The notes under the pieces were generated by a model. The model was not told the origin of the DNA. It did no database searches and was given only the letters and a program-made list of their open reading frames with translations. Position numbers and translations under genes: made by a program. Below are positions 18,124-26,348 of a DNA stretch of 64,000 nucleotides, piece by piece (the first letter of the stretch is position 1; every line of letters starts with the position of its first letter). The stretch comes from Spirochaetota bacterium (lineage in GTDB: Bacteria > Spirochaetota > UBA4802 > UBA5550). The stretch is taken from NCBI GenBank assembly GCA_016928865.1, contig JAFGJX010000086.1, positions 1 through 64,000 on the forward strand, in the 5' to 3' direction.

Positions 18124-19986
18124 TCATTTTTCCCGCCGCAAAACAACCATGGTGATGTCATCATTACATGAAAAACCTTCCAGCGAGGAGGTAATACTGT
18201 TTTTGATGTCCTCCACCGGTCCCGCGCATGACCGGGAAAAAACTTCAATGAGCCGCTCAATGCCGAACATGTGTATGCCGCCGTCACACGTCGTATCAGC
18301 CGTATCGGGCACACACGCTTCGGTAATGCCGTCGGTAAAGACCAGGAGCGTGTCCCCGATTTCGAGACGGCATGAATCGTCCTGGACCATGTCGGCAATG
18401 TCGTCGATTATTCCGAGCCACATTCCACGGGTCTCCAGCACGTCGATTTTGCCGGTCGCTTTTCTGTGAATAAGGATGTCCTGATGCAGTCCCGAAAAGA
18501 TGAATTGCCCGTCCTGGTGGACCGCCGACACCATGATTGTCATGTATCTGTCCAGCCCGATCTTTTTTATGCTCGGCGTAATGGATAAATTCACTTTCCG
18601 CATAAGCTCCGAAGGCGTGACATCGGGATCATCGGAGACCATGGCATGGATGGCGGTCTGTACAATCATCATGATGAGGCCGGACGGCACGCCGTGGCCG
18701 GATACGTCGCCGATGATGAGCCAGTCCCTCCCTCCAGCGTTCAGTATGTCATAGTAGTCCCCGCCGACTTCATCCGCAGGCCGCATAAAGGTTGCCAGGC
18801 GGTAGCCGGATATCGCAGGATCCGTAGGAAGGAGCACCGTCTGGATCTTTTTCGCAATGTGCATCTCGCCCCACAGCAAATCGCGCGTGTTGATCAGCTC
18901 GGCGTTCGTCACCCGTATCTCTTCAATCGCGGCCTTGAGATTGATTGTGTCCCTCTGGTCGTGGGCCACCACGACTATTCCCACCACCTCTCCGGCAGTG
19001 TCCTTGAAGTCCGAGCAGAAAAAGGTGACCGGGATATTCCCGCCCACTTTGGTTATGAGATTGCCATCGAATTGAAAATTTGATATGCTTGAATCCTTGA
19101 TGCGGTTCATCTTCTCGCGCAGAAACTCCTTTTCGGCTATCAGATCATACAGTGACTTTCCCCTGAATTCACTGCTGCTGAAACCGGTCAATTCCTCTGC
19201 CTGATGGTTTATGACTATGACGGTATCGTGCGGGTCGGTGAGGATCATGATGTCCATCATCTTTGATATGATCTCCCCCGCGGCAATTTCAGGGGTGAGT
19301 ACCAGGAGCTTGTATCGCGACATGGCGACCCATGCCCCAATGATGATGCTTGTACTGAACAGCGCGCCGATGGCCGGCATCTGTATTCCCAGTACGGGAA
19401 TGACCATGTTGAAAAAAGACGCCATGAGAAAGCTCGCTATGGTGGTGATGATCACCAGCTGCGCCTGCTTTTTATATCGCATGATATTTGATTTTCTCCC
19501 CCACAGCCAGAGTATTATACACGCGATAAAAAGTGCGGCAATGTTGTATAACCCGTAAATATTAAACCAGACCGACTTGCTGGCGATAATCTCGGCGGTG
19601 CCGAGCGGGGTCTGGTAAAAGTTTTCAGCGATCAGTATTCCGGTGAGGGAGCGCCAGAGTAAAATACAGGACGGGAGGTAGAGCACGGCATATATCCACC
19701 ATCGCGAGAGAAGCCTTTTCTTTCCCGTCAGGATCAGAATGAAGTGGAGGAGGGTCGAGTGAATGAAACACCAGCCGAAAGAGGTGAACCGGTACCAGAA
19801 CCAGATCTGCTTGATATCCGTGGCAGGATAGATAAACACATAGCCGAAGGACCATATCATGCCGGTTGCGCAATACGCAAAAAAAACCTGACTCAATCTT
19901 GCCTTTGGTTCGCGTCGGAGTACATGCAGGCCGAAATATGAGCAGAGAAGAAATGAAAAAAACGATAACAGGGAGAGGATATTCAT
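18124..19986 (-). CDS. 7TM-PAS-SpoIIE protein phosphatase
   Basis: 620 residues. About 1-230 form the N-terminal seven-helix membrane domain often found before histidine kinases (histidine kinase N-terminal 7TM region). About 245-365 is a PAS domain (TDPHDTVIVINHQAEELTGF). About 385-618 is a PP2C/SpoIIE phosphatase with metal-binding motifs GGDYYDIL, IGDVSGHGVPS, FTDGITEA and DDITMVVLR. Such proteins dephosphorylate anti-sigma-factor antagonists and so switch on partner-switching pathways in response to membrane or redox signals. No anti-sigma antagonist or RsbW-like kinase gene is nearby. The architecture is frequent in spirochaetes. Confidence 0.92.
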   Translation of the reverse strand: MNILSLLSFFSFLLCSYFGLHVLRREPKARLSQVFFAYCATGMIWSFGYVFIYPATDIKQIWFWYRFTSFGWCFIHSTLLHFILILTGKKRLLSRWWIYAVLYLPSCILLWRSLTGILIAENFYQTPLGTAEIIASKSVWFNIYGLYNIAALFIACIILWLWGRKSNIMRYKKQAQLVIITTIASFLMASFFNMVIPVLGIQMPAIGALFSTSIIIGAWVAMSRYKLLVLTPEIAAGEIISKMMDIMILTDPHDTVIVINHQAEELTGFSSSEFRGKSLYDLIAEKEFLREKMNRIKDSSISNFQFDGNLITKVGGNIPVTFFCSDFKDTAGEVVGIVVVAHDQRDTINLKAAIEEIRVTNAELINTRDLLWGEMHIAKKIQTVLLPTDPAISGYRLATFMRPADEVGGDYYDILNAGGRDWLIIGDVSGHGVPSGLIMMIVQTAIHAMVSDDPDVTPSELMRKVNLSITPSIKKIGLDRYMTIMVSAVHQDGQFIFSGLHQDILIHRKATGKIDVLETRGMWLGIIDDIADMVQDDSCRLEIGDTLLVFTDGITEACVPDTADTTCDGGIHMFGIERLIEVFSRSCAGPVEDIKNSITSSLEGFSCNDDITMVVLRREK

Positions 19987-24164: not shown

Positions 24165-24257
24165 TCCGGGGTCCTCTGTCGCCTGTCGATTTTTACGTCT
24201 GATGCGGATGAATATAGAAATGAATGGACAACATGTCAAGATACTTCTTGCACGGAA

Positions 24258-24286
24258 TTGACAAAGAGCCGGTCAATTGATATATT
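24258..24286 (+). promoter_or_regulatory. Strong promoter of the CULT gene
   Basis: TTGACA (24258-24263), a 17-base spacer and TATATT (24281-24286). Transcription should start at about 24292-24293, which coincides with the ATG at 24293, so the mRNA may be leaderless. Confidence 0.8.
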
Positions 24287-24292
24287 CCTGGT

Positions 24293-24736
24293 ATGGAAGA
24301 TGTTCGAAATCATGAGCGTCTGCTATCGGCCGCCGGCCTTGCCGTTCCCCTGTCCATCCTCCAGCGCTCTGATACACCGAATTTCGTCGGACTGCGCGAG
24401 GAAGCCCCGCGCGACGCTCTTGAAAGGGAAGAGGGCCGATTGCTCTGCGGCGCGTGCGGCAACCGGATCACCACGGAGTCGGCGTGCATAGTTGTGAACG
24501 GCTCGCATGATCATATCTTCCGGAATCCCGGCGGTCTGGTTTTTCATGTCGGCTGTTTTTCCGACGCGGGGGGCTGTCTGGTCGTCGGCGTCTTCACGGA
24601 GGAGTACACCTGGTTTCCCGGATATGCCTGGTGCTATGTACTCTGCGCGGGGTGTCAGGCGCACCTCGGGTGGCGGTATGAGCGGGGCGATGACGGTTTT
24701 TTCGGATTGATCCTTGACCGGCTTGTGCGCCGGTAA
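24293..24736 (+). CDS. Cereblon-like CULT-domain protein
   Basis: 147 residues. From residue 50 on it matches the CULT domain, the thalidomide-binding domain of human cereblon, also known as single-domain proteins in bacteria (Magnetospirillum). Zinc ligands are C52, C55, C118 and C121. The aromatic cage is W107, W113 and W127. The spacings W-6-W-14-W and W-11-C are those of human W380/W386/W400 and C391. Conserved HxHxFxNPGG (HDHIFRNPGG) and FFGLILDRL are present. CULT domains bind cyclic imides such as those at C-terminal degrons; the bacterial role is unsettled. No ATG other than 24293 is available and there is no ribosome-binding site, consistent with a leaderless mRNA. The stop lies 2 bases from the convergent anti-sigma gene. 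Confidence 0.92.
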   Translation: MEDVRNHERLLSAAGLAVPLSILQRSDTPNFVGLREEAPRDALEREEGRLLCGACGNRITTESACIVVNGSHDHIFRNPGGLVFHVGCFSDAGGCLVVGVFTEEYTWFPGYAWCYVLCAGCQAHLGWRYERGDDGFFGLILDRLVRR

Positions 24737-24737
24737 C

Positions 24738-25745
24738 CTAATCCTGTATATGCATGGTGATGCGCAGCGTGGCTGAAGCGCGCGGCGCCGCCGGTGACCT
24801 GTCGAAGATGTTCCATCGTTGTCCCAGCCTTTCAATGAATGCCGGGTAGTTTCCTGACGGCAATTCAACGACAACGGACCGGGGAGCGCCCGTTGTTTTG
24901 TCCATGACTGTCTGGATGATCTTTCCGCCGAGCGGCCTGGCAAGGTCGTCAATGGCCCAGATTGTATCCGCACGCTGTTCGTCCCGCCCTGATGTTTTTG
25001 CGCGCTGCGCCTCCGGCGCCGCGCTCGAACGCAGCGAGGTGCCGCCGACTATGATCCCGGAATCCGCGGCCGCATCCTCGCTTTCCCGCGTCACCAGATC
25101 TTCGGTCGCCGCTTTCTCTTCATGGGCTGATTTCAGCCGCAGGGCGAGGGTAATCTCCGCCGCCTGAATGTCGGCAGTCTCCTGTTTCTGTATCTGTTCT
25201 CCCGGCCGTGAGCCAACGGTGACCGCGGCATCCTTACGTGCCGGTTCAGGTCGGGTTGCGCGTTTTTTTTCAGGTGCGGCCGCGACATTGTTTTCCGGCA
25301 GCGCCTGCCTGCGGCCGGGCGCGATATCCCGCGTCGCTTTCCTGTCCGGCGCCGCTGCATGCTCCGTAACCGCAGGGGCCTGCTCGGGGCCGTAGTCGAG
25401 GAGGTCGGTTCTATACGGCCTGAAGAGCAGGACGCCGGTCAGGGCCAGCGCCACCAGTGCGGCTGCCTCGAGAGGCACCTTGACGCTGAGCGGGAAAAAG
25501 AGCGTCCGCACGATACCGCTCCGTTGCCGCCGTTCTATTCCGCGGTGGACCCCTTTCAGAAAATCATCAGGCGCCTGAAAGGTGGGATATTTCCCGATTG
25601 CCTTCAGGTACTTTTTCAGAAAACGGAGCTCATCGCGACAGTTGTCACACTTCTTGAGGTGCGCCGCAACGGAGGCCTTCTCTTTTTCCGTTGCCGTTCC
25701 GTCAAGGTAGTCCGCGAGGATCATTTTGACCTGATCGCAGTTCAT
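24738..25745 (-). CDS. Zinc-finger anti-sigma factor (membrane)
   Basis: 335 residues. The N-terminus MNCDQVKMILADYLDGTATE with HLKKCDNC (HxxxCxxC) is the ZAS/zf-HC2 anti-sigma domain that binds ECF sigma factors. A membrane helix lies at about 92-110 (VPLEAAALVALALTGVLLFR). The periplasmic part is a long low-complexity linker rich in Ala, Arg and Glu (about 115-250) and a C-terminal domain ending in a beta-rich segment (VVVELPSGNYPAFIERLGQR), similar to DUF2275/DUF4349-like sensor ends. It begins directly after the sigma gene stop, so the pair is coupled. It should hold the sigma factor at the membrane until an envelope signal arrives. Confidence 0.87.
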   Translation of the reverse strand: MNCDQVKMILADYLDGTATEKEKASVAAHLKKCDNCRDELRFLKKYLKAIGKYPTFQAPDDFLKGVHRGIERRQRSGIVRTLFFPLSVKVPLEAAALVALALTGVLLFRPYRTDLLDYGPEQAPAVTEHAAAPDRKATRDIAPGRRQALPENNVAAAPEKKRATRPEPARKDAAVTVGSRPGEQIQKQETADIQAAEITLALRLKSAHEEKAATEDLVTRESEDAAADSGIIVGGTSLRSSAAPEAQRAKTSGRDEQRADTIWAIDDLARPLGGKIIQTVMDKTTGAPRSVVVELPSGNYPAFIERLGQRWNIFDRSPAAPRASATLRITMHIQD

Positions 25746-26348
25746 CTAGAGAACCTCCCGCAGCGACTCTCTAAGAAGGTGCCGCGCCCGCGCGAGGCGC
25801 GATTTGACCGTTCCCAGGTTGACGCCGGTTATTTCCGAGATCTCCTCGTAGGAGTTTCCCTCGAGGTCTCTCAGCACGACGAGGACTTTCAGCTCGTCGG
25901 GCAGGGAATCGATCGCGCGGTGTATCACCCGCGACTGCTCGTTTTTTTCGAACAGGTCGCCGGGATCGGAGGAGCAGTCGTTGATCTCCACCGGTCCGCT
26001 CTCTGCATCTCCCGGGCGGTCTATGCGGACCATTTTTTTCCTCATGCGGTTCCCCGACGATGACAGCATGGTGCGGCATGTGTTTATTGCGATTCGATAC
26101 AGCCACGTGGTGAAGCTGGAACGAAACGCGAAGTTTTTCAGATTGGCATGCACTTTTATAAACGTCTCCTGGGCGCAGTCGCTCGCGTCATCATAGTCTC
26201 CCACTATACGGAAACAGAGGTTGAACACGAGGTCCTGGTACTTGAGCACGAGTCGGTCAAATGCGTTGATGTTTTCAGCCAGAAAGTCGCGTATCAGGGT
26301 TTCATCCTCCTGATTTGACCGCGCCGCTTTTTTTGTTTCACTGTTCAT
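25746..26348 (-). CDS. ECF RNA polymerase sigma factor
   Basis: 200 residues, RpoE-like. Region 2 is at about 25-95 (FDRLVLKYQDLVFNLCFRIV, DASDCAQETFIKVHANLKNF with the core-binding and -10-melting helices). Region 4 is at about 145-195 (LPDELKVLVVLRDLEGNSYE, then EISEITGVNLGTVKSRLARA, the helix-turn-helix). A polar linker (RKKMVRIDRPGDAESGPVEI) separates them. The gene is followed with no gap by its zinc-finger anti-sigma gene. Its regulon is unknown; such pairs usually recognise a promoter ahead of themselves, but I cannot identify one in the AT-rich upstream region. Confidence 0.93.
   Translation of the reverse strand: MNSETKKAARSNQEDETLIRDFLAENINAFDRLVLKYQDLVFNLCFRIVGDYDDASDCAQETFIKVHANLKNFAFRSSFTTWLYRIAINTCRTMLSSSGNRMRKKMVRIDRPGDAESGPVEINDCSSDPGDLFEKNEQSRVIHRAIDSLPDELKVLVVLRDLEGNSYEEISEITGVNLGTVKSRLARARHLLRESLREVL

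Follow-up and report, generated by a model that had tools for sequence, protein, structure and literature searches.

The window, by which we mean the whole stretch of 64,000 nucleotides analysed here (positions 1 to 64,000 of contig JAFGJX010000086.1, assembly GCA_016928865.1, from a Spirochaetota bacterium), carries on its forward strand a short gene for a protein related to human cereblon. The gene, its promoter, and the parts of the protein are the following.

24258..24263, forward strand: -35 element TTGACA (consensus scan; same element and spacing in 6 of 6 genus members)
24281..24286, forward strand: -10 element TATATT, 17 bases past the -35 element, with 6 bases between it and the ATG
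24293..24736, forward strand: CULT gene, 147 amino acids plus stop, ATG start, single copy in the genome
24293..24433, forward strand: N-terminal tail, residues 1-47, predicted disordered (AlphaFold2)
24344..24361, forward strand: tail motif PLSILQ, residues 18-23, some 28 residues ahead of the first zinc cysteine (Gibbs search, held-out check, alignment)
24434..24733, forward strand: CULT domain, residues 48-147 (phmmer, Foldseek, VIA-align)
24446..24457, forward strand: first zinc CxxC, C52 and C55, invariant in 64 homologues
24524..24535, forward strand: NPxG hairpin tip, N78-P79-G80-G81 (homologue alignment; a named CULT motif, PMC4449219)
24611..24631, forward strand: cage tryptophans W107 and W113, with Y111 (equivalents of MsCI4 W79, W85, and Y83)
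24644..24655, forward strand: second zinc CxxC, C118 and C121 (alignment of 64 homologues)
24671..24679, forward strand: cage tryptophan W127, and Y129 (equivalents of MsCI4 W99 and Y101)

Judging from its aligned residues and from a predicted model, the product is almost certainly a CULT protein of the bacterial kind whose pocket is intact. A phmmer search against PDB chains matches residues 51-145 to MsCI4 (cereblon isoform 4, MGR_0879, of Magnetospirillum gryphiswaldense; PDB 4V2Y and others) at E 1.6e-24, and residues 50/52-130 to human cereblon chains at E ~1e-9 to 1e-7. No Pfam or NCBIfam model matches the 147-residue protein at cut-off, and so automatic annotation probably leaves the gene as "hypothetical". 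Across the 64 homologues, which come from several phyla, C52, C55, N78, W107, W113, C118, C121, and W127 are invariant, and P79 and G81 are nearly so. An earlier note on this DNA had called the protein cereblon-like and its imide pocket complete. The MsCI4 match and the invariant pocket residues bear out the first claim, and the second agrees with the sequence, the predicted model, and the residue invariance.

How closely does the pocket follow those of known structure? The intervals along C52-C55-W107-W113-C118-C121-W127 are 3, 52, 6, 5, 3, and 6. The phmmer alignment to MsCI4 runs without gaps from C52 to beyond W127, with all intervals equal; the imide hydrogen-bonding position, E104/Y105/W107, aligns with MsCI4 E76/F77/W79, and the tyrosine at the base of the cage, Y129, with MsCI4 Y101. 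The cage tryptophans of human cereblon are W380/W386/W400 (PMC8900816). In the phmmer alignment to the human protein, 79 query residues span 81 human residues, the stretch that joins the first zinc pair to the first cage tryptophan being two residues shorter here. If, as we take it, the human zinc cysteines are numbered Cys326 and Cys394, then C326 to W380 measures 54, versus 52 here. The assertion that the tryptophans and cysteines have exactly the spacings of human cereblon is thus right for five of the six intervals and wrong for C55 to W107, which is two residues shorter; it is for MsCI4 that it is exact.

AlphaFold2 was run twice, once with 26 relatives and once with 64 relatives from several phyla. 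The CULT domain is predicted with pLDDT >95 after residue 50, and the model matches solved structures with a Foldseek E ~1e-11. Superposition on MsCI4 and on human cereblon, which the earlier note had proposed as a check, agrees with the assignment: VIA-align gives Z 19.6, rmsd 1.1 Å, and 40% identity over 100 residues for MsCI4, and Z 17.8, rmsd 1.4 Å, and 29% identity for human cereblon. The protein has the two CxxC zinc motifs and the three cage tryptophans at conserved spacing that mark a bacterial CULT protein, the predicted model has the beta-tent fold of the solved structures, and the CULT domain stands alone, as a single folded domain behind a 47-residue tail that is predicted to be disordered. 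The LON domain and the DDB1-binding region of cereblon proper are absent from the 147 amino acids, which hold no further domain. By analogy with MsCI4, the protein would very probably bind cyclic imides in vitro.

Bacterial CULT proteins were described in 2015 (Lupas et al. 2015), including one from the spirochaete Leptospira sp. B5-022 (PMC4287342). The proteins of that group are likewise stand-alone, and they are described as wholly CULT domain, whereas here there is a conserved tail motif outside the domain. MsCI4 is also a single CULT domain, with identical zinc cysteine and cage tryptophan spacing and a tyrosine at the cage base, but it has Phe77 and Ser78 where the window's protein has Tyr105 and Thr106, and its tail ahead of the first cysteine is 23 residues long in the phmmer alignment versus the 51 found here, which carry the motif. 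The thalidomide-binding domain of human cereblon shares the fold, the zinc site, and the tri-tryptophan cage; it differs in having Phe at the cage base where there is Tyr here, and His353 in place of Gly80. A stand-alone bacterial CULT domain is known, and what is new is the tail motif, the promoter, and the occurrence of a sigma pair beside the gene only in the genus. As to what such proteins do, the earlier note gave their functions as unknown, in agreement with the literature that we could reach (PMC4287342, PMC4449219), where, apart from the ligands of MsCI4, we found neither a bound ligand nor a contact with a protease nor a phenotype for bacterial CULT proteins.

The N-terminal 50 residues had been set aside as no part of the known domain. 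As far as the fold is concerned this is correct, with pLDDT ~50-60 before residue 40, but the tail holds a conserved motif. The motif, P-[LIVFY]-x-[LAF]-[FL]-[KRQ], lies mostly 26-30 residues ahead of the first cysteine in proteins from several phyla, and PLSILQ is its local form, a variant without Phe. It comes from an ungapped Gibbs search of 74 dereplicated proteins (<~62% identity) that left out the 14 residues adjacent to the domain; a first search in which the domain-near residues were kept found the composition of the charged linker only and was discarded. The likelihood score is 434 versus 338 +/- 6 (maximum 350) in 40 shuffles of the 74 proteins, shuffles that, like the other controls on the motif, remove the relatedness among proteins.

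We then scored 43 held-out proteins, all of one class, not dereplicated, and in part ranked with a profile in which columns of the tail are included, using 57 training sites chosen by eye from the Gibbs search list. The best site falls 24-32 residues from the cysteine in 33 of these 43, where 13.5 are expected and at most 22 were reached in 200 shuffles, and the mean score is 1.58 versus -0.05 (maximum 0.82) in the shuffles. The motif is conserved and non-random across several phyla, and it is supported in the held-out proteins. Several short relatives (such as those at L132 and L140) start at the motif itself, with MYAFR or MYALR. We found no description of the motif in the open-access literature, although it may stand elsewhere. 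The much shorter tail of MsCI4 indicates that the motif is not universal. MsCI4 itself presumably has no clear tail motif, from which it would follow that imide binding does not depend on the motif.

In all six genus members, TTGACA is followed by 17 bases, TATATT or TATAGT, and then exactly six bases to the ATG; matches of at least 11 of 12 promoter positions occur in 0.05% of shuffled 60-mers. Since a promoter ending six bases before the ATG would, with the usual start site, put the first transcribed base at or near the start codon, the CULT message is probably leaderless, and this would fix the start codon. Upstream lies a divergent membrane-protein gene. A second consensus promoter, TTGACA-N17-TATATT, at 24211-24239 of the window (reverse strand), points towards that gene and away from CULT; the gene likely starts at the ATG near 24165 rather than at the TTG at 24239. 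The downstream neighbour, convergent across a 1-base gap, is an anti-sigma gene whose product has a zf-HC2 domain, and beyond it is an ECF sigma gene. On the reverse strand, the ECF sigma gene (25746-26348) is followed directly by the anti-sigma gene (24738-25745), and this pair, at 24738-26348 of the window, is beside CULT in five genus loci. Further away, at 18124-19986 (reverse strand), there is a gene for a seven-helix sensor with a PAS domain and a SpoIIE phosphatase, likely a regulator of the anti-anti-sigma type.

The proximity of the sigma/anti-sigma pair, to which the earlier note had drawn attention, is therefore real, and the convergent arrangement with its 1-base gap is kept in the genus. 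The stress link that the note allowed for finds no support, and that CULT belongs to a stress regulon of the adjacent ECF pair seems to us very improbable. The order of the neighbourhood is kept in the five genus loci for which the flanks were read, but other flanking genes are kept as well, which is plain synteny, and no part of the arrangement turns up near CULT in the order's other families. In 6 of 6 genus members the promoter of CULT is sigma-70-like and not ECF-like, and with housekeeping-type hexamers it is unlikely that the neighbouring sigma factor controls the gene. Adjacency confined to one genus and a sigma-70-type promoter of its own lead us to reject the link. A conserved operon partner we reject too: among the best 80 loci, with flanks read up to 10 kb, any protein family that recurs next to CULT does so only within a single genus or close family, and nothing in these neighbourhoods supports a protease partner.

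The genome holds one copy of the gene, on the chromosome. CULT is present in 29 of 59 sampled relatives, all in the window's order, and across the phylum in 32 of 392 genomes. When genome contigs were scanned, tblastn confirmed 494 relatives; the best 80 of these 494, which were kept, come from Thermodesulfobacteriota, Spirochaetota, Pseudomonadota, Nitrospirota, Acidobacteriota, Aminicenantes, and others. Around Desulfosediminicola, 122 of the 257 genomes in one class carry CULT, nearly always once. One genome (G633) has three matches on three contigs, either because the gene was duplicated or because the assembly is mixed. Searches of phage, plasmid, and viral contigs gave no CULT match, on which ground we reject carriage by such elements. 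The leaderless, housekeeping-type promoter and a single copy in roughly half the relatives sampled speak for an everyday role in the cell, and against a stress or mobile-element function.

A phylogeny of the domain had also been suggested in the earlier note, and we could follow the suggestion in part: a tree of 94 CULT domains was built, with few columns and poor resolution, and in it the genus of the window forms a group of 7 rows (98/91) together with Syntrophaceae and myxococcal rows, and not with all spirochaetes. This grouping hints at lateral transfer of CULT.

What might the protein do? We propose that a zinc-pinned beta-tent holds a cage of three tryptophans that would bind a five- or six-membered cyclic imide, as MsCI4 leads one to expect, and that the natural ligand could be the C-terminal cyclic imide (aspartimide or glutarimide) of damaged or processed proteins, as for human cereblon. 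Human cereblon recognises C-terminal cyclic imides that arise from protein damage or via the PCMT1 isoaspartyl methyltransferase (PMC11974815, PMC13001092), and PDB entry 9nr3 shows cereblon in complex with cyclised GLUL; that a bacterial pocket would read such C-termini is drawn by parallel with the human protein. The tail motif, on its acidic disordered linker, would then dock a partner, a protease or a chaperone, making the protein a small adaptor. The ClpS and SspB degradation adaptors, in which a small folded degron binder has a flexible tail that contacts the protease, are likened to it by analogy only. The parts of this proposal differ in strength. That the natural ligand is borne by a protein and is not a small molecule is a claim, again by analogy, on which we are evenly divided, and that the motif is a docking site for a partner we consider about equally open to belief and doubt; the scheme of reader plus docking as a whole is tentative, and on balance it may well be wrong in some part. 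Carried further, to a ubiquitin-free pathway for degradation or quality control of cyclic imides, in which the pocket recognises C-termini that end in aspartimide or glutarimide, perhaps the products of an isoaspartyl methyltransferase, the motif docks a bacterial protease or chaperone, and the thalidomide pocket is seen in its ancestral use, the proposal becomes unlikely.

The main alternative for the ligand is that the protein is a sensor or carrier of small molecules, in which the cage binds free rings similar to uracil, hydantoin, or dihydrouracil, and its occupancy is passed on to a partner by way of the tail. Uridine and deoxyuridine bind to MsCI4 with an affinity like that of thalidomide (PMC4449219), the PDB has other small rings as well, and the likeness of the pocket in bacteria and eukaryotes was read by Lupas et al. 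as a sign of a widespread ligand (PMC4287342). Yet in the 80 loci no gene for pyrimidines or hydantoins is a recurrent neighbour of CULT, and the authors of the uridine work found no biological context for it (PMC4449219), and we regard this alternative as possible though doubtful. A different use of the tail, in which the motif bends back onto the aromatic cage or the rim of the cage and controls entry of the ligand without any partner, would suit its near-constant distance from the domain, its ending in K, R, or Q, and the flexibility of the apo MsCI4 cage, which unfolds without ligand (PMC4449219). The models speak against such self-gating, and we think it quite unlikely: with 26 or with 64 homologues, the tail stays at pLDDT ~50-60 and is not placed confidently on the domain. 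Block means over the tail are ~48-65 with 26 relatives and 55-72 with 64, and the larger alignment lifts the tail pLDDT, which is ~50 over the first 40 residues with 26 relatives, only to 55-61. A motif docked on its own domain is not seen with confidence in either AlphaFold2 model, as expected if it is the site of another partner.

Drugs for targeted protein degradation use the thalidomide pocket of cereblon more than any other handle. The tail motif, conserved in bacterial CULT proteins of several phyla, is a concrete bait for the missing partner, and it makes the question of bacterial CULT function testable.

Some observations concern the neighbours of CULT in other genomes. At L082 (9280-9954, on the same contig as L016), a gene of the protein-L-isoaspartate methyltransferase family immediately precedes CULT on the same strand, with a Pfam PCMT match at 1.5e-38. 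Its eukaryotic homologue, PCMT1, produces the cyclic-imide degron of cereblon. A methyltransferase and a CULT protein could form a pair of writer and reader, but this is one case in ~168 loci and could be chance. Isoaspartyl methyltransferase is present in 58 of 59 genomes, so nearly universal that its presence, and hence its co-occurrence with CULT, has no discriminating power.

We inspected three long frames as possible CULT fusions, and none is convincing. In one of them, a frame of 659 residues (L146) that joins a siroheme synthase to CULT, the junction looks like the end of the synthase read out of frame, which suggests an overlap, a frameshift, or an assembly artefact. In several Desulfobulbales-like genomes (L089, L097, L098, L146), CULT comes after a siroheme synthase (cobA/hemD) gene. 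L098 is from Desulfosediminicola flagellatus IMCC35005, a sulfate reducer that can be cultivated. Finally, in two gammaproteobacterial loci (L068, 4860-5738, and L077, 9007-9876), a gene of the sigma-70 family that resembles heat-shock sigma-32 lies upstream of CULT on the same strand.
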